Assembly: GCA_022483015.1 (NCBI GenBank) | Contig: JAKVOB010000001.1 | Span: 310,001 to 374,000, forward strand | Direction of reading: 5' to 3' | From: Atopobiaceae bacterium | Lineage (GTDB): Bacteria > Actinomycetota > Coriobacteriia > Coriobacteriales > Atopobiaceae | DNA length: 64,000 nt | Shown: positions 47,797-64,000 of the stretch, in pieces | How positions within the stretch are numbered: the first letter of the stretch is position 1 | Layout of the letters: every line of letters begins with the position of its first letter | Position numbers and translations under genes: made by a program | The notes under the pieces: generated by a model | What the model was told of the DNA's origin: nothing | What the model saw: the letters and a program-made list of their open reading frames with translations, nothing else | The model's database searches: none

Positions 47797-47912
47797 GGTC
47801 AGCGACGACCTGCTCTCCCACGGACTACACCGCAGTACCATCGGCGCTCGGGGGCTTAACTTCTGGGTTCGGAATGGGACCAGGTGTACCTCCCCTGCCA
47901 TAATCGCTGACC
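47797..47912 (-). rRNA. rrf: 5S ribosomal RNA
   Basis: About 116 nt. The minus strand holds the conserved 5S core CCCATTCCGAACCCAGAAGT and GATGGTACTGCG. The ends GGTCAGCGA/TCGCTGACC pair, and flanking sequence extends this stem (AATGCCCTTCGTT...), the likely maturation stem. Confidence 0.96.
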
Positions 47913-48030
47913 AACGAAGGGCATTCTGCTGTCAAGGGGTCCGACTACGTCGTACCCTGATGGCTACACAGCGTGAACACGAGCTTTCCAAGAAGTCGCA
48001 TGAGATGCGCAAACACAAACCAAAAGAGAA

Positions 48031-52788
<4,758 letters not shown>

Positions 52789-55586: not shown

Positions 55587-58500
55587 CTATCCTTCGTCGG
55601 GACCTTGGTCCGGGCCGCGTCCTGGGCCCCGGTGCGACTCGAGGGTGATCTGGGACAGGAAGGGAACGGAGCCATCGAAGGCGCCTTCCTCGGCCTGCCA
55701 GCTCCAATTCCCCTCCGCCGTGCCAGGCACGTTCATGCGTGCGGTGTCATCGAGCGCGAGCGCGTCCTGCAGCGGCATGATCACCACCGATGCCCGACTC
55801 CCCCACACCGAACAGGCCAGACGGTCTGCGAGCGTACGGGCCTCCTCCCCCGCGACCCCGTAGCGCAGCTCGCTCCACCCCAGCAACGTCGACGTGTCAT
55901 GCGTGCTGGTGTAGGCGACCTTGCCCGGAGAGGGGACATAGCCCTGGAGCACGTCGGCGTCAGAGAACTCGAGCACGTCCATACCCGTGAAGCCCCCCTG
56001 CGCCACGAGGGCGCGCACGGCCGGCGTGATGGTGCCGAGGTCCTCCGCGATGACAGGCAGCCTGCCGAGCCTCTCGTAGGCGGCCTCGAACAGGGCCATG
56101 CCAGGGCCCGGGAGCCAGCGCCCCTCGCGGGCGGTCTTGCCCTCCTCGATCGCATAGTAGGAGGAGAAGCCCAGGAAATGGTCGAGCCGCACATAGTCGT
56201 AGAGGGAGAAGGCGCGGCGAAGGCGGTCGAGCCACCACGAGTAGCCGTCCGTGGCCATGACCTTCCAGTCATAGGTCGGATTGCCCCAGAGCTGACCATC
56301 GGCAGCGAACGCATCCGGTGGAGTCCCTGCCTGCTCGCTCGCGAGTCCGGCATCATCGAGCCTGAAGAGGTCGGGGTTCGCCCAGACATCCGCAGAGTCC
56401 GCACTCACATACATCGGCATGTCCCCGATGATGTGGACGCCGTGGTCATGCGCATAGGCATGCAGGTCCTGCCACTCCCGCTCGAAGCGGTACTGGCAGA
56501 AGCGCCTGAAGCGCACCTCGCGTGCGAAGCGGGGGTCGACGGCAAGCTCGCTGTCGTAGTGCCTGAGGTCGAGCGGCCATTCCTGCCAAGGCTCGTCATC
56601 GCGTGCGGCATGTATCGCCGCGAAGCAGGCATAGGGGTCGAGCCAACCTGCATTGGCCTCGCAGAAGGAGCGGTAGTCATGGTCGGTCTCGTCGAACCTG
56701 GCAAACCCGGCACGCAGGGCGGCCTCGTCCTCCTCGAGGAGGTTCACGTTGCCCGCCATGGCCGACACGCCCGCATAGGGCGAGCCGTGCTCGTCCGTCG
56801 GATTGACGGGAAGGACCTGCCAGTAGGTGAGCCCGCAACTTGCGAGCTGGTCGACGAAGTGCCGTGCCTCGGCACCCAACGTCCCATGGCCGTCGCGCCC
56901 GCCCGGCAGCGACGTCACATGGCAGAGGATGCCGGCGCCACGTTCTGGGGCCTGGGCGATGCGTTCCGCGCCATGGAAGTAGAGGACCGCTGACCCCAAG
57001 GGAGAGAGCAGCACGTGGGCGAGTCCTGCCTCGAGCGTGACCTGGGCACCACCGACAAGGTCCTCTACCTGATCGCCCTGCACGCGGACGTAGGCATCAT
57101 GCTCGCACGAGGAGGACCGGTTGACGAAGACCACCAGCGACTCGCCCGAATGCTCCCCAGTCCCTCTGCGGATGAACCCGTAGACATCGTCGCCGCAGGA
57201 CAGCGGCTCGAAGGTCCCATTCACCAGATAGGGGAACGTACGGCGGAGCGCCATGGCATTGCGATAGATCGTCTCGCAGTCAGCATCCTCGTGCCCCCAA
57301 GGGAAGGTCCCTCTGTTGCAGGGATCGGTGAGGCCCTCGAGCCCGGCCTCGTCCCCGTAGTACACGCAGGGGACCCCGGGCATCGTCATCTGCACGAGCG
57401 CGGCGAGCCATAGACGGCTCTTCGCAAGGCCACGCTGGCCCTCGGTGAGGCGATAGCAGGCTCGCTCCTGCTCGGTCATGCCACTTGGGTCAGGGCACCC
57501 CCCGAGCACGGAGAGAAGCCTGGTCCTGTCATGGCTCCCCAACAGGTTGAGCGCGCAGGCGAATGCCTCGGGAGGGTAGCTCTCCTGGAGCGACAGCATC
57601 CTCTCGACGACCTCGTCCGCAGGTATCTCGTTGGTGAGGAAGTCGAGCAAGGCCGTCCGGAAGGGGTAGTCCATGGCACTGTCGAGCTCATCGCCAAGCA
57701 GGTAGCGACGCGTCTTGCCATAGGCGACCTTGTTGGATGCGTCCTCCCAGACCTCACCTATGAGAAGCCCGTTCGGGCGCTCCTCGAGCACCGCCCCCTT
57801 GATGGCGGCGATGAAGTCGTCGGGAAGCTCGTCGGCGACATCGAGACGCCAGCCGCTCGCCCCCGCACGGAGCCAATGTCTGACGACGCCGTCCCTGCCA
57901 AGCATGAACCTGCGATAGCTCGGCTCCTCCTCCTCGACGTCCGGAAGGTCGGCGACGCCCCACCAGCTGCAGTAGGTCTTGCCATCGTTCTCTATCTTGT
58001 ACCAGCTGCGGTAGGGAGACTCCTCACTCTGGTAGGCACCAAGACCCGGATAGTTGCCATACTTGTTGAAGTAGCGCGAGTCGCACCCCGTATGGTTGAA
58101 CACACCGTCGAGAATCACATGCATGCCAAGGGACGAGGCCTCCACGCAGAGGGCACGGAAGTCCTCCTCGGTGCCCAGCAGGGGATCGATGCGCATGTAG
58201 TCGCCGGTGTCATAGCGATGGTTGCTCGCGGCCTCGAAGATGGGATTGAGGTAGATCACCGTGAAGCCCATCTCGCGCAGCCGGGAGAGCTCGCCGGTGA
58301 TGCCACGGAGGGTTCCCCCGTAGAAGTCCCAGCAGGTGATATGGCCTTCGTCATCCTTCTGATAGGTAGGGGGACGATCCCAGTCCTGCACGAGGACACG
58401 GTCGGGGCCATGGCGATGGCCCTCGAGCTCCACCTTGGCGTTGGCCTTCCAGTCATCACCTCGGCGGAACCTGTCCGGGAATATCTGATAGACGATGCCA

Positions 58501-58895
58501 TCCTCGTACCATGAGGGACGGACCGGCCGCGGGTGATAGACCGTCACCTGGAACGACGGGGGCATGTGGTCATAGACGGCACCTTCGCCGCCCGTCCTCC
58601 CCTGGGGGGCCCCGAGGTAGCGCACGATGCCGCCCGAGCACTCGATCACGAAGCAGTACCAGAGGGTCTTGGGATCGCCCGCTGGTAGGGTGCACGAGAA
58701 CCTCAGATGGTCTCCCTGGGGGGCAAGCATCATGGTGACGTAGGACTCCCCCACGCCATCCTCCCATGTGCGACAGGTCACCACGGCGTCGGGGTCATCC
58801 CAGATGTCTATGGCAAGAGAAACGGCGCCGCCATCACACACGGCGCCGTAGGGGCTTCGATAATCAGTATCCCTGCTGTTATGACGAGCTCTCAT
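55587..58895 (-). CDS. malQ: Fusion of a GH13 alpha-amylase/neopullulanase and a GH77 4-alpha-glucanotransferase
   Basis: One 1102-residue protein combining two glucan enzymes. Residues 1-125 are an N-terminal beta domain like those of neopullulanases. GH13 follows (about 130-630) with VILDGVFNHTG, the catalytic Asp352 (GWRLDVADE), Glu381 (GEVWED) and Asp456 (GSHDR). From about 651, ERGAGILCHVTSLPG opens GH77, with nucleophile Asp905 (RLDHFLGF), acid/base Glu951 (AEDLG) and Asp1000 (THDT). Both triads are intact. There is no signal peptide, so it works on internal glycogen or maltodextrin. Its ATG is 7 bases after the glgA stop; a weak GAGG lies upstream. The gene name reflects the GH77 half only. 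Confidence 0.92.
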   Translation of the reverse strand: MRARHNSRDTDYRSPYGAVCDGGAVSLAIDIWDDPDAVVTCRTWEDGVGESYVTMMLAPQGDHLRFSCTLPAGDPKTLWYCFVIECSGGIVRYLGAPQGRTGGEGAVYDHMPPSFQVTVYHPRPVRPSWYEDGIVYQIFPDRFRRGDDWKANAKVELEGHRHGPDRVLVQDWDRPPTYQKDDEGHITCWDFYGGTLRGITGELSRLREMGFTVIYLNPIFEAASNHRYDTGDYMRIDPLLGTEEDFRALCVEASSLGMHVILDGVFNHTGCDSRYFNKYGNYPGLGAYQSEESPYRSWYKIENDGKTYCSWWGVADLPDVEEEEPSYRRFMLGRDGVVRHWLRAGASGWRLDVADELPDDFIAAIKGAVLEERPNGLLIGEVWEDASNKVAYGKTRRYLLGDELDSAMDYPFRTALLDFLTNEIPADEVVERMLSLQESYPPEAFACALNLLGSHDRTRLLSVLGGCPDPSGMTEQERACYRLTEGQRGLAKSRLWLAALVQMTMPGVPCVYYGDEAGLEGLTDPCNRGTFPWGHEDADCETIYRNAMALRRTFPYLVNGTFEPLSCGDDVYGFIRRGTGEHSGESLVVFVNRSSSCEHDAYVRVQGDQVEDLVGGAQVTLEAGLAHVLLSPLGSAVLYFHGAERIAQAPERGAGILCHVTSLPGGRDGHGTLGAEARHFVDQLASCGLTYWQVLPVNPTDEHGSPYAGVSAMAGNVNLLEEDEAALRAGFARFDETDHDYRSFCEANAGWLDPYACFAAIHAARDDEPWQEWPLDLRHYDSELAVDPRFAREVRFRRFCQYRFEREWQDLHAYAHDHGVHIIGDMPMYVSADSADVWANPDLFRLDDAGLASEQAGTPPDAFAADGQLWGNPTYDWKVMATDGYSWWLDRLRRAFSLYDYVRLDHFLGFSSYYAIEEGKTAREGRWLPGPGMALFEAAYERLGRLPVIAEDLGTITPAVRALVAQGGFTGMDVLEFSDADVLQGYVPSPGKVAYTSTHDTSTLLGWSELRYGVAGEEARTLADRLACSVWGSRASVVIMPLQDALALDDTARMNVPGTAEGNWSWQAEEGAFDGSVPFLSQITLESHRGPGRGPDQGPDEG

Positions 58896-58902
58896 AGGGT
58901 GG

Positions 58903-61239
58903 TTACCTCGTACCCTCCTTGGATGCGTGCTTCGGTGCCGGCTTGGCCGTTGGCTTCTTGGCGGCCTTCGCGGCCGGCTTGGCCGCAGGCTTTGCGGCGA
59001 CCTTCGCGGCCGGCTTGGCCGCAGGCTTCACCGTGGACTTGGCGACCGACTTGGCTACTGGCTTTGTCGCAGACTTCGCGACCGGCTTTGCTGCGGCCTT
59101 GGTAGCAGGCTTTGCCGCGTGCTTCACAGCGGGCTTTGCAGCAGGCTTGGCGGCCGACTTCGCCGAAGGCTTGGCCACGACCTTGGTAGCGGGCTTGCTT
59201 GCCGACTTCGCTGCAGGCTTTCCTGCTGGCTTTGCCGTGTGCTTCACAGCGGGCCTAGCCGCAGGCTTCGCGGCAGGCTTCGCGGCAGGCTTCGCCGAAG
59301 GCTTAGGCGTCGTCCTTGCCGCAGGCTTGGCCGAGGTCTTGGCCACGTGCTTTGCCGCCGGCTTAGCGACGGGCTTCACAGCGGGCTTTGCCGCCGGCTT
59401 AGCGACGGGCTTCACAGCGGGCTTTGCCGCCGGCTTAGCGACGGGCTTGGCTGCGGTCTTGGCCGCAGGCTTTGCGGCAGGCTTCACGGCCGACTTTGCG
59501 GCAGGCTTTGCGGCAGGCTTCACGGCCGACTTTGCGGCAGGCTTTGCGGCAGGCTTCGAAGGGGCCACCGTGAGCGATGAAGTGGCCGCCTTGGAGCCCG
59601 TCGACGCCATGGCTGTCGGCCTTGCGGGAGGAACCTTGGCGATGGGCTGGGGCTTCACCTGGACGATGGGCTTTGGTCCAGACTTGACGACGGCCTTGGG
59701 CTCGGGGTTCTTCTCGGAAGGCTCGGCCTTGGGCTCGGGGCTCTTCGCGGCAGGCTTGGGCTCAGAAAGGTCGATCTCGGGATGAAGCCCCAGATAGACA
59801 TCCTTGTACTCCTCGGCAGCCTTCTCCCACCCAAAGTCGGTGGACATACCATGGACCATGAGGTCATGCCACGCCTGGCACTCGTAACGGTAGACGCCCA
59901 CGGCACCGAGTGCGCAGTCGCGGAACTCGTCCCCGTTGAAGTTGGCGAAGCTGAATCCCGTTCCCTCGCCCGTATAGTGGTTGAAGGGGATGACCGTGTC
60001 CTTGAGGCCGCCGGTCTCGCGCACGATGGGAATCGTGCCATAGCGCATGGCGATCATCTGCGAGAGTCCACAGGGCTCGAACTGCGAGGGCATGAGGAAC
60101 ATGTCCGCCCCCGCATACATGCGATGAGAGAACGCCGGGTCGAAGGCGATGCAGGCGCGCATGTTGTCGTGGTACTTCCAGTCGAAGTAGCGCAGGGAGT
60201 CCTCGTAGGAGCGGTCACCCGTCCCGAGGATGGCCACCTGCACGCCCTGACCCAGGATGGCGTCGAGCGCATACTGGATGAGGTCGAGCCCCTTCTGCTT
60301 GGTGAGGCGCGAGACCATGACCATGAGCGGGCGGTACGGATCGACGTCGAAGCCGAGCTCGCGCTGGAGCGCGGCCTTACACTCGGCCTTGCCCGAGAGG
60401 TCATCGACCGAGAACTCCTTGGCGATTCCCTTGTCATGGACAGGGTTGAACTCCTCCATGTCGATGCCGTTGAGGATCCCATGGAGCACGCTCTCGCGCA
60501 TGCGGAACATGCCATCCATGCCCTCGCCGTAGTACGGCATCTTGAGCTCCTGGGCATAGGAGGGGCTCACCGTGGTGAGCGCATCGGAATACGCGAGCGC
60601 CCCCTTCATGAAGTTCACCGTCTTCGGTCCGCAGGCCATCTGGCTCGCGGCCGCAGGGACGTGCGCGAGGCCACAGATGTCACCGAGGACGTCCTCGGAG
60701 TACTGGCCCTGGAACTTCACGTTATGAACCGTGAACACGGTCTTGATGTGCTCGTACTCGGGCAGGCCCTGATAGAACTCGCGCAGGAAGACCGGTGCCA
60801 TGGCGCACTGCCAGTCGTTGCAGTGGAGCACGTCACAGGTGAATCCAGGGATGTACTGGATGCACTCGACCACGGCCTTCGAGAAGAACGCGAAGCGCTC
60901 GGCGTCGTCGAAGTAGCCGTAGGCCCCGTCACGACCGAAGTAGTCCTGGTTGTCGACGAAGTAGAAGTCGATGCCGCGATAGTGAATCCGCTCGATGCCA
61001 CAGTAGGGGTTGCGCCAGCTGAGCGGCAGGTAGAAGTCACAGACGTGCTCCATCTTCTCCTGCCACTCGGGAGCGATGAACCCATACTTGGGAAGGATCA
61101 CCGACACGTCGAGTCCCGCATGGGCAAGCTCGACGGGGAGCGTCCCCGCGACATCGCCCAAGCCGCCCGTCTTCACGAAGGGTGCCGCCTCGGACGCGGC
61201 GAACAGGACATGCAGCTTCCTCTGCTCGGCCTTGCTCAT
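58903..61239 (-). CDS. glgA: Glycogen synthase GlgA with a long Lys/Pro/Ala-repeat tail
   Basis: Residues 1-491 are a complete GT5 ADP-glucose-dependent glycogen synthase: KTGGLGDVAGTLP (Lys23 binds ADP-glucose), LHCNDWQCAM, VFTVHNVKFQGQY, LNGIDMEEFNP, MVSRLTKQKGLDL and the C-terminal SQFEPCGLSQMIAMRYGTIPIVRETGGL. About 287 further residues follow. From about residue 562 they are tetrads such as KPAA, KPAV, KSAV and KPVA with a Lys roughly every fourth position, like histone H1 tails. No normal GlgA has this. The stop is at 58903-58905. The start ATG overlaps the glgD stop by 4 bases (ATGA), and a GAGAGGG lies upstream. Codon use in the tail is consistent with the genome. Confidence 0.95.
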   Translation of the reverse strand: MSKAEQRKLHVLFAASEAAPFVKTGGLGDVAGTLPVELAHAGLDVSVILPKYGFIAPEWQEKMEHVCDFYLPLSWRNPYCGIERIHYRGIDFYFVDNQDYFGRDGAYGYFDDAERFAFFSKAVVECIQYIPGFTCDVLHCNDWQCAMAPVFLREFYQGLPEYEHIKTVFTVHNVKFQGQYSEDVLGDICGLAHVPAAASQMACGPKTVNFMKGALAYSDALTTVSPSYAQELKMPYYGEGMDGMFRMRESVLHGILNGIDMEEFNPVHDKGIAKEFSVDDLSGKAECKAALQRELGFDVDPYRPLMVMVSRLTKQKGLDLIQYALDAILGQGVQVAILGTGDRSYEDSLRYFDWKYHDNMRACIAFDPAFSHRMYAGADMFLMPSQFEPCGLSQMIAMRYGTIPIVRETGGLKDTVIPFNHYTGEGTGFSFANFNGDEFRDCALGAVGVYRYECQAWHDLMVHGMSTDFGWEKAAEEYKDVYLGLHPEIDLSEPKPAAKSPEPKAEPSEKNPEPKAVVKSGPKPIVQVKPQPIAKVPPARPTAMASTGSKAATSSLTVAPSKPAAKPAAKSAVKPAAKPAAKSAVKPAAKPAAKTAAKPVAKPAAKPAVKPVAKPAAKPAVKPVAKPAAKHVAKTSAKPAARTTPKPSAKPAAKPAAKPAARPAVKHTAKPAGKPAAKSASKPATKVVAKPSAKSAAKPAAKPAVKHAAKPATKAAAKPVAKSATKPVAKSVAKSTVKPAAKPAAKVAAKPAAKPAAKAAKKPTAKPAPKHASKEGTR
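58920..59560 (-). repeat. Tandem DNA repeats encoding the GlgA basic tail
   Basis: The tail is built of 12-base variants (one KPxA unit). A 36-bp unit is exactly duplicated at 59354-59389 and 59390-59425 with a partial third copy to 59448; a second 36-bp family recurs at about 59470-59550. Such identity at DNA level indicates recent slippage or duplication. Confidence 0.85.
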
Positions 61240-62336
61240 ACCTGTCCCTCTCCCTTGCCCTGCACGAGCACCGCCTCAGGAGTGCCCCTCAGCTCGGTCC
61301 GCGCAGGGATGACGTTGTTGCGATCGACGATGGCGTTCTCTACGCGGGCACCGCTCTCGATGACACAACCCTGCATGACGATGCTGTTGCGGACGGTCGC
61401 GCCGCTATCGACGCGGACGTTCCTTCCCAGGATGCTGTCGGAGATGGCGCCTTGGATGCGGCAGCCCGCAGAGACGAGGGAGTTGCTCGCATGACCACCG
61501 GTCTCGTACTTTGCCGGCGGAGTGTCATGGGCCTTGGTGAGGATGGGCCTGCCTGCCGGGAAGAGCTGGTCATCGATCTGGGGGTTGAGCAGTTCCATGC
61601 TGTGACGGAAGTAGCTGGCCGCGTTGAAGATGCCTGCCGCGAACCCATCGAAGTTGAACGTGCGCACATCGACGCGCTCGAAGTCGGACTGCATGGCCTC
61701 GAAGAGGTCGAGGTAGTCGACGGCCGCATACCACTCGAGGTACTTGAGCAGCAGCTCGCGAGAGACGATGAAGCAGTCGAGGAAGGCGGTGTCGCCGAAC
61801 TTGCACCCGTGGGTGACGCCCTTCACGCGACCGTCCTGGACGAAGCACGAGGTGATGTCCTCGTCCGCGGCCTTGGCCTCCTGGGTGACGACGGTGATGT
61901 CGGCCCCGGACTCCTTGTGCGCGGCGATGAGCTCGCGGAAGTCCATGTTATAGACGATGTTCGAGGCGCAGCAGACCACATAGGGAGCCTTGTCCCGCTC
62001 GAGGAAGATCTTGTTGTGCTCGATGTCGCGGAGCAGGAAGCGCGCACCCGTGCGTGACGTTCCGGAGGCGGTGCCGGGAAGCATGAACAGGCCGCCGTTC
62101 TTGCGGTCGAGCGCCCAGTCCTTGCCGGAGCCCACATGGTCGATGAGCGAGCGATAGTTGTAGGGCATCACGACGCCGACCGTGCGGATGCCGGCGTTCA
62201 CCATGTTGGAGAGCGGGAAGTCGATGAGACGATAGCGACCCAGGTACGGCAGGGACGCGACGGGGCGCGCCTCGGTGAGGGCACTCTGGCTCTTGGTGGA
62301 GTAGTTCGTGGTGATGAGTCCGATTGCGCTTTCCAT
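61236..62336 (-). CDS. glgD: Glucose-1-phosphate adenylyltransferase subunit GlgD
   Basis: Regulatory partner of GlgC in ADP-glucose synthesis, typical of Firmicutes-like heterotetramers. The 366-residue protein has the nucleotidyltransferase fold (LPYLGRYRLIDFPLSNMVNAGI) but lacks the G-rich AGGxGxRL start loop and the catalytic DHxY motif, which here is replaced by CASNIVYNMD. A C-terminal left-handed beta-helix follows. It starts at ATG 62334-62336 with GGAGG overlapping the glgC stop, 2 bases away, and overlaps glgA by 4 bases. Confidence 0.93.
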   Translation of the reverse strand: MESAIGLITTNYSTKSQSALTEARPVASLPYLGRYRLIDFPLSNMVNAGIRTVGVVMPYNYRSLIDHVGSGKDWALDRKNGGLFMLPGTASGTSRTGARFLLRDIEHNKIFLERDKAPYVVCCASNIVYNMDFRELIAAHKESGADITVVTQEAKAADEDITSCFVQDGRVKGVTHGCKFGDTAFLDCFIVSRELLLKYLEWYAAVDYLDLFEAMQSDFERVDVRTFNFDGFAAGIFNAASYFRHSMELLNPQIDDQLFPAGRPILTKAHDTPPAKYETGGHASNSLVSAGCRIQGAISDSILGRNVRVDSGATVRNSIVMQGCVIESGARVENAIVDRNNVIPARTELRGTPEAVLVQGKGEGQV

Positions 62337-62338
62337 GA

Positions 62339-63487
62339 CTATTCCTCCCCCTTCCCTACGACCACGTCATCGCCGATGACAGCCGTGTCCTTTGTCTTGT
62401 CGATGCTGCCGAGACTGACGTTCTCCTCGACCGTGGAGTTCTCGCCGAGGATGGCGCGCACGACCCGCGCCCCGGCCTTGACCCGGGCGCCAGGCAGGAG
62501 CACGGAGTCGATGACGGTGGCCCGCTCTCCCACGAAGGAGTCCGTCGACAGGATCGAGTGGCGGACCGTCCCCAGGACACGGCAGCCATTGGCCACCAGC
62601 GCGTCATCGATCTCGCCGTCAGGACCCACATAGTGGGGTGGTCGCGGCGAGCTGTTCGACATGATGGGGAACTCCGACGAGTAGAGGTCGAAGTCGGGGT
62701 GGGTCCCCAGCAGGCTCATGCTCGTCTCGTGGTAGCTCGCGATGGTGCCGACGTCACGCCAGAAGCCGTTGAACTCGTAGGTGTAGATGCGCTTGTTCTG
62801 CGCGAGCATCGTGGGGATGATGTTCTTGCCGAAGTCATGCTCGGACTGGGGGTCGAGCGCATCGGCCTTGAGCGCCTCGATGAGGGGCTTGGCAGAGAAG
62901 ACGTAGATGCCCATGGAGGCGAGGTTCGAGTCAGGCTTGGTGGGCTTCTCGGTGAACTTGGTCACACGGTCGTCCTCGTCCTGCGTGATGATGCCGAAGC
63001 GCGAGGCCTCCTCCCAGGCCACTGGCATGACCGAGATGGTGAGGTCGGCGTTGTTGGCGATGTGGGCATCGACCATCTTGCGATAGTCCATGCGATAGAG
63101 GTGGTCTCCGGAGAGGATCACGACATACTCGGGGTCGTTGGTCTCGATGTAGCCGATGTTCTGATAGACGGCGTCTGCCGTGCCCTCATACCATGACCCG
63201 CCGGTCTCGGTGGCATACGGGGGGAGCACCGAGATGCCGGCGCCTCGCTCGTCGAGGTTCCAGGCAGCGCCGGTACCGATGTAGGAGTGCAGGAGGTAGG
63301 GACGATACTGCGTGAGGACACCGACCGTGTCGATGCCAGAGTTCGCGCAGTTGGAAAGTGAGAAGTCGATGATGCGGAACTTGCCGCCGAACGAGACCGC
63401 CGGCTTGGCTATGTTTCTCGTCAGCGCTCCCAGCCTGCTCCCCTGCCCGCCGGCAAGAAGCATTGCTATGCATTCCCTCTTGCTCAT
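62339..63487 (-). CDS. glgC: Glucose-1-phosphate adenylyltransferase catalytic subunit GlgC
   Basis: Makes ADP-glucose, the glycogen precursor, from ATP and glucose-1-phosphate. The 382-residue protein shows [60 protein letters not shown] and the sugar-phosphate site [10 protein letters not shown], with a C-terminal beta-helix that carries allosteric control. Start ATG 63485-63487 after GAAGGGG. It follows glgP by 32 bases. The long frame to 63619 reaches into glgP and is not used. Confidence 0.97.
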
Positions 63488-63519
63488 GGTGCACCCCTTC
63501 CCTTCGAAGTCCGAACCAC

Positions 63520-64000
63520 CTATGACGCGTGCCAGATCTCCTTCGCATACTCGCGAATCGTACGGTCGCTCGCAAAGTAGCCCGAGGTTGCCGTGTTGTG
63601 GAGCGCGATGCGGTTCCACCGGTGCGCGTCGGGGTAGATTGCCGTGAGCCTCTCCCAGGCGTCGACATAGGACCTGAAGTCCTTGAAGACGAGGTCTGGG
63701 TCATTACCCTGCATGAGATAGTCGTGGATGCTCTCGAAGTTGCCCGAGAGCGAGGCGAACGTACCGTCCACGAGCTCGTCGACCACGCGGCCGAGACGGT
63801 CGCGGTCGTTGTTGTACTCGTCCCACGAGAAGTACGTGCCCGCCGCACGGAGTGCCTCGACGTCTTCCACCCGAAGGCCGAAGACCTCGATGTTGTCGTC
63901 CCCCGCGAGCTGGGCGATCTCGACGTTGGCGCCGTCCATGGTGCCGAGCGTGATGGCGCCGTTCATCATGAGCTTCATGTTGGACGTGCCCGAGGCCTCC
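63520..64000 (-). CDS. glgP: Glycogen phosphorylase, C-terminal part (runs off the right edge)
   Basis: About 160 C-terminal residues of a GT35 phosphorylase, which releases glucose-1-phosphate from glycogen. The fragment includes the PLP phosphate-binding block [27 protein letters not shown], where most homologues have ASGTGN, so one Gly is Ser here. It continues with VFGL, SWDEYNN and the C-terminal [16 protein letters not shown]. It is the upstream gene of the glgP-glgC-glgD-glgA operon in the visible region. The N-terminus and promoter are outside the window. Confidence 0.95.

Follow-up and report, generated by a model that had tools for sequence, protein, structure and literature searches.

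Lysine-rich, histone-like tails on glycogen synthase and branching enzyme of the Coriobacteriales, and a possible link to the nucleoid

Why should a glycogen synthase end in nearly three hundred residues that resemble a histone? The question is raised by a glgA gene in the window, the 64,000-nucleotide stretch of DNA analysed here, which belongs to a genome consisting of a single contig of 2.276 Mb. The gene (58903..61239, minus strand) is a single open frame of 778 codons that encodes a catalytic core of the GT5 type (residues 10-483; 59791..61212, minus strand) and a C-terminal tail. The core matches the NCBIfam equivalog model of GlgA, NF001898, with 630.7 bits against a cut-off of 603, and is folded in the AlphaFold2 model. 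This full-length match above the cut-off, a match to PF08323 and the motifs KTGGLGD and EPCGLSQ identify the protein as GlgA, and the Pfam matches of the whole protein are to glycosyltransferase families only. By every sequence criterion examined, the protein is a bacterial GlgA (GT5). Since NF001898 covers residues 10-483, the synthase is complete without the tail, as the original prediction held. Ordinary GlgA and GlgB, such as those of E. coli and Agrobacterium, have the same cores (NF001898 for GlgA, NF003811 for GlgB); they differ in having no tail, the GlgA model ending near residue 480 and the GlgB model at 620-630.

The tail spans residues 486-778 (293 residues; 58906-59784, minus strand). 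An extent of 58903-59766, or about 287 residues, had been proposed for it and differs only in where the boundary is placed. It contains 88 Ala, 63 Lys, 53 Pro, 23 Val, 21 Ser and 15 Thr residues and has a net charge of about +59. Its first ~75 residues, roughly 486-561 (59557..59784, minus strand), form a linker of mixed Pro, Glu and Lys, the DNA of which holds a 33-bp repeat detected by TRF (59691-59756). The remainder, roughly residues 562-778 (58906..59556, minus strand), is a cationic KPAA-type repeat with Lys at every fourth residue, as indicated by TRF, motif counts and predicted disorder. The tail has 20 exact copies of KPAA, five of KPVA and three of KPAV, and the interval between successive Lys residues is four in 51 of 62 cases. 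Lys coincidences at a lag of four number 52, compared to 13.3 +/- 2.9 in shuffled tails, and none of 2000 shuffles reaches 52. The likeness to histone H1 and AlgP that had been noticed at the outset is upheld. AlphaFold2 gives residues 493-778 a pLDDT below 50 and neither helix nor strand, and this region is predicted to be disordered. No recognised Pfam or NCBIfam domain scores above cut-off in the tail, and its PDB matches (Plasmodium circumsporozoite protein and other low-complexity chains) were set aside as matches of composition only. An opposite-strand frame at 58919-59785 was likewise rejected as a gene; it is a mirror of the repeat.

The DNA of the repeat carries traces of two processes. 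TRF finds 12-bp and 72-bp arrays across the KPAA-type repeat, the latter a higher-order tandem duplication within it (59349..59557, minus strand), and the repeat is thus also expanding by copying. Neighbouring 12-nt units diverge at 0.55 of third codon positions but at 0.23 of the first two, with AAG serving as the Lys codon throughout the tail, as it does in the core. The bias of unit divergence to third positions, together with the constant Lys codon, makes the KPAA repeat look as if it is kept as protein sequence.

The genes around glgA place the protein in a pathway and show how selectively the tails are distributed. The operon runs glgB-glgP-glgC-glgD-glgA-glgX/malQ on one strand throughout, and this association with glgC, glgD, glgP and glgB supports ADP-glucose-dependent chain elongation as the probable activity of GlgA. 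The neighbours within the window, all on the minus strand, have no such tail. They are a fusion of a GlgX-type amylase with MalQ (55587..58895), whose start ATG lies 7 nt past the glgA stop, glgD, for the second subunit of ADP-glucose pyrophosphorylase (61236..62336), glgC, for ADP-glucose pyrophosphorylase itself (62339..63490, with the start codon inferred inside a longer frame reaching 63619), and the 3' end of glgP, for the phosphorylase (63520..64000), which runs past the window end. The first three were named by sequence and operon position. The branching enzyme gene glgB, upstream of glgP and 2 kb past the window end (G000:C1:376085-378343; L103:10086-12344), is different: its product terminates in a Lys/Ala/Pro tail (...APKKATAKKPAAKAAAKKPVAKKSAPAKATAKK...).

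A tail on GlgB turns out to be the rule in the order. Among 60 distinct GlgB tails of Coriobacteriales, 57 have at least 25 residues and a net charge of at least +10, with a median length of 83, and a basic Lys/Ala tail is present on GlgB in almost every Atopobiaceae genome examined. A Lys-rich tail is found even on the GlgB of G060, which is divergent (42% identical to the usual one). Outside the order, three genomes of Anaerovibrio (Bacillota; L161, L162, L165) encode GlgB with a Lys/Thr-rich C-terminal extension in frames of 784-841 residues, apparently independent of the Coriobacteriales tails. In the operon neighbourhoods read, 33 of 44 GlgB and 19 of 46 GlgA proteins were scored as tailed; the corresponding count for other closed frames is 1 of 351, the sole case being a fragment of a frame-broken GlgB in G019. 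The tails thus single out GlgA and GlgB, the two polymer-building enzymes of the operon. Judged by sequence, basic tails recur across the glycogen enzymes of Coriobacteriales, on GlgA and/or GlgB. We propose to group these proteins as tailed Coriobacteriales glycogen enzymes, defined by a basic Lys/Ala/Pro(Thr) C-terminal tail on either enzyme, and the window protein belongs among them. The idea that the tail is an oddity of one genome is rejected.

The distribution of the GlgA tail is more uneven. In the sister species (G020), GlgA has a core 75% identical to that of the window protein and a 180-residue tail at the same place with a different sequence, laid out as a PEPAEK linker followed by PKPAAKPKTTAA. 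GlgA was found in 134 of the 140 genomes searched in the window's own family, the Atopobiaceae, and in most it is tail-less, ending near ...LHPEVIRYNKRRD. Tails of at least 50 residues occur in seven of these genomes (G000 and G020, both of genus g1, and G019, G060, G010, G005 and G014), the GlgA of G011 being cut off by a contig end. For some genomes C-termini were bounded by the length of the open frame, which leaves room for no more than ~100 further residues, counting both ends; where such frames are longest, same-genus genomes were read and are tail-less. The tail is short in G014 and Glu-rich in G019. In the neighbouring family, that of Collinsella, all readable GlgAs of genera g38-g42 are tailed, with 138-464 residues (258-281 in named strains of Collinsella aerofaciens), and those of genus g37 are tail-less. 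Tail length, which the original prediction had proposed to check in other strains, varies among close relatives. On these sequences, the tail is near-universal on Collinsella-type GlgA and sporadic in Atopobiaceae.

A tree built from 75 GlgA cores cannot be reconciled with fewer than six changes of tail state, and each of the six is required by branches whose SH-aLRT is 95 or more; this is a quick count in which gains and losses are taken together. The GlgA of some Coriobacteriales is tail-less, and Atopobium fossor is essentially without a tail on either enzyme, which indicates that glycogen can be made without one. A second, divergent GlgA paralogue (42-44% identity) is encoded beside the main one in many of the family's genomes, for example G053, G054, G055, G064, G072 and G075; it is tail-less where read.

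Is the tail under selection? In the Collinsella aerofaciens group, dN/dS is 0.01-0.09 for the GlgA core, 0.17-0.33 for the GlgA tail and 0.23-0.52 for GlgB tails, and across aligned pairs of GlgA tails identity is 96.3% at Lys, 94.9% at Arg, 80.3% at Ala, 76.7% at Thr and 49.8% at Ser; alignments of repeats are uncertain, and all these figures are indicative. Under neutrality, the genetic code predicts that Lys would be less conserved than Ala, which is four-fold degenerate. Tail length in the group varies between 258 and 282 residues while net charge holds at +25 to +39. These indicative figures suggest that selection acts on the charge of the tail. The proximal third of the GlgA tail is acidic or close to neutral in most lineages, and the remaining two thirds are basic.

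Known proteins with similar tails offer a guide to what the tail may do. The closest in vocabulary is AlgP of Pseudomonas aeruginosa, in which a KPAA-repeat region of 154 residues contains 25 KPAA, 7 KPVA and 1 KPAV (PMC9239181). KPAA peptides of AlgP bind DNA, the protein associates with polyphosphate granules, and AlgP and its C-terminus are needed for even spacing of the granules (PMC9239181). Both proteins end in a disordered KPAA/KPVA tail with Lys every fourth residue, and their charges are comparable (+55 for the AlgP protein, about +59 for the GlgA tail). AlgP differs in being non-enzymatic, in its helical N-terminus and in its association with polyphosphate granules, whereas here the tail is fused to a glycogen synthase; the two tails share composition, from which homology does not follow. 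PhaF and PhaM use histone-like C-termini to hold PHB granules on the nucleoid (PMC13052382). They combine a granule-binding N-terminal part with a histone-like, DNA-binding C-terminal tail, and PhaM also contacts the PhaC synthase; however, the N-terminal part is not itself a polymer synthase, and the polymer is PHA rather than glycogen. Lys-rich low-complexity tracts, several of them DNA-binding, are also present in actinobacterial TopA, HupB/HupS, Ku and HrdB, and the TopA of this genome has one; the bodies of those proteins act on DNA, which is not the case for GlgA and GlgB. The Lys repeats of TopA and HupB in actinobacteria are histone H1-like and aid DNA binding (PMC7398561).

In family terms, GlgA has the disordered KPAA-type tail with Lys every fourth residue that characterises the AlgP and PhaF tethers, and lacks a phasin- or AlgP-type N-terminal domain. 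Nor does it qualify under the histone H1-like Hc2 models (PF07382, NF038052), there being no Pfam Hc2 match at E<=1; the GlgB tail of this genome gives a weak match to the chlamydial Hc2/histone H1-like family (PF07382; 28.5 bits, under the cut-off of 40). As far as its sequence goes, the tailed GlgA is not a member of the AlgP, PhaF or Hc2 families, despite the motif vocabulary of AlgP. By analogy, its tail may bind DNA and position granules as that of PhaF does. The cationic tail is of a known type; what appears to be new is the kind of enzyme that bears it, a combination that has arisen repeatedly across an order. In agreement with the expectation that no such GlgA had been described, we found no description of a Lys-rich tail on GlgA or GlgB, or of nucleoid-bound glycogen, in the open-licence literature, subscription papers lying outside this coverage. 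A 2025 review of bacterial organelle positioning leaves glycogen unmentioned (PMC13052382), as the accessible portion of a 2024 review of prokaryotic alpha-glucan enzymes does disordered regions, Collinsella and the nucleoid.

Which other proteins carry such tracts also bears on the question. Within the genome, pattern searches, which pass over tails with other Lys spacing and gave zero hits with reversed patterns, found tracts in GlgA, GlgB, an esterase, TopA, the N-terminal part of an unassigned protein, SecE and, in short form, the end of a putative glycosidase. In relatives, Lys-rich tracts occur in TopA, Rho, RpoD and the same esterase. Apart from the glycogen enzymes and the esterase, the clearest tract-bearing proteins act on nucleic acid. 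The esterase, an alpha/beta-hydrolase (PF00756) at about 24.9-26.1 kb of C1 (L105:2438-3580), has a KPAAKPATK tail of ~115 residues; its relatives in L305 (G111) and L296 (G039) have other Lys/Ala tails, and there is no obvious reason for an esterase to have one. No member of the HU/IHF family (PF00216) reached the cut-off in 18 Coriobacteriales genomes (G000, G020, G087, G146, G205 and others), compared to 9 of 14 control genomes that did. If the order lacks HU, Lys-rich tails may be of greater importance there.

We consider it possible, though somewhat short of probable, that the tails tether glycogen particles to DNA through the enzymes that build them. In the proposed mechanism, the GlgA core would hold the growing glycogen particle while the tail would grip a polyanion nonspecifically, with nucleoid DNA as the likeliest partner and RNA as a possible one. 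With the tether thus part of GlgA and GlgB themselves, glycogen would be spread over the nucleoid rather than pooled at a pole, and the particles would hence be shared between daughter cells. The job would be analogous to that of PhaF and PhaM on PHA granules and of AlgP on polyphosphate granules. Such an arrangement would address a problem that exists elsewhere: in E. coli, GlgA-GFP and glycogen gather at the old pole, the glycogen is inherited unequally, and when in excess it is believed to exclude the chromosome (PMC4836754). Further points in its favour are the match in motif vocabulary to AlgP, whose KPAA peptides bind DNA, the confinement of the tails to GlgA and GlgB among neighbouring genes, and their repeated evolution, seen in the GlgA tree, the divergent GlgB of G060 and the GlgBs of Anaerovibrio. 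The conservation of Lys, the tail dN/dS of 0.17-0.33 and the steady net charge point to selection on charge, and several of the other proteins with tracts (TopA, Rho, RpoD) act on DNA or RNA. Three points argue against the tether. The tailed esterase has no known role with nucleic acid; polycations bind any polyanion, which makes DNA a candidate partner among several; and the tail is absent from some Coriobacteriales GlgAs and short or Glu-rich in the carriers mentioned above. DNA binding, granule association and subcellular position of the tailed enzymes are all putative, being drawn from the analogy. The polyanion-binding or granule-organising role suggested originally is probably the most reasonable reading; the part of that suggestion which took the tail for a single oddity has given way to a recurrent trait.

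Several alternatives to the tether have been weighed. The tails may instead build an enzyme scaffold, in which the basic tails of both enzymes would combine with acidic Pro/Glu linkers, or with other acidic proteins, into a condensate or scaffold that gathers synthase and branching enzyme on the growing glycogen particle, with DNA uninvolved. Tails of this charged, disordered sort are typical of proteins that form condensates, both enzymes are tailed, often in one genome, and GlgA tails with an acidic or neutral first third and a basic end could pair mutually. However, the tails of GlgB, like the majority of short tails, are basic almost throughout and have no obvious acidic partner, and only GlgB is tailed in most Atopobiaceae, so mutual pairing is not general; we regard the scaffold as unlikely. 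A further candidate partner is polyphosphate or a different acidic polymer (storage or surface), and binding to it would couple glycogen to polyphosphate granules. This is suggested by the nearly identical repeat of AlgP, which sits on such granules (PMC9239181), and by PPK1 and PPK2, both encoded in the window's genome. Neither kinase was detected by these searches in the tailed genomes G014 (98% complete), G163 (99%) and G060 (89%), so kinase-made polyphosphate would not be a general partner, and this explanation appears distinctly improbable.

The tails could also be without specific function, a tolerated low-complexity expansion, with slippage lengthening GC-rich 12-bp repeats at a gene end where extra length is harmless. 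The 12-bp and 72-bp repeats are plainly visible in the DNA, tail sequences are wholly different between lineages, length varies among close relatives, and similar tracts occur in other proteins of the genome. Against this, dN/dS is well below 1, Lys is far better conserved than Ala, Ser or Thr, and the divergence between adjacent 12-nt units falls mainly on third codon positions (0.55 versus 0.23). The restriction of the tails to GlgA and GlgB among ~350 neighbouring genes, their persistence at the level of the order and their reappearance on a divergent GlgB also speak against it, and mere tolerance seems quite unlikely. The outcomes that could have undone the original prediction, an assembly error or a separate gene fused through a lost stop codon, have next to no probability, and nothing was found in their favour: the genome is a single contig, the tail is present within GlgA in the sister species and tens of other genomes, and the relatives' operons that were read contain no separate tail gene.

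If the tether is accepted, glycogen would follow PHA and polyphosphate as the third storage polymer that bacteria place on the nucleoid, here by a tether built into GlgA and/or GlgB. Such a tether would have evolved more than once within an order of Actinomycetota from gut and mouth where the HU-family search found none. This wider proposition is doubtful, though not far-fetched. If true, it would provide a simple genetic handle on how human gut bacteria, Collinsella aerofaciens among them, share out their glycogen when they divide. Even with a partner other than DNA, the tails are an order-wide, repeatedly evolved, charge-conserved and apparently undescribed extension of two textbook enzymes. 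Elsewhere in the window, a complete rRNA operon occupies 47797-52780 on the minus strand, with 16S at 51265-52780, 23S at 48028-51000 and 5S at 47797-47911.
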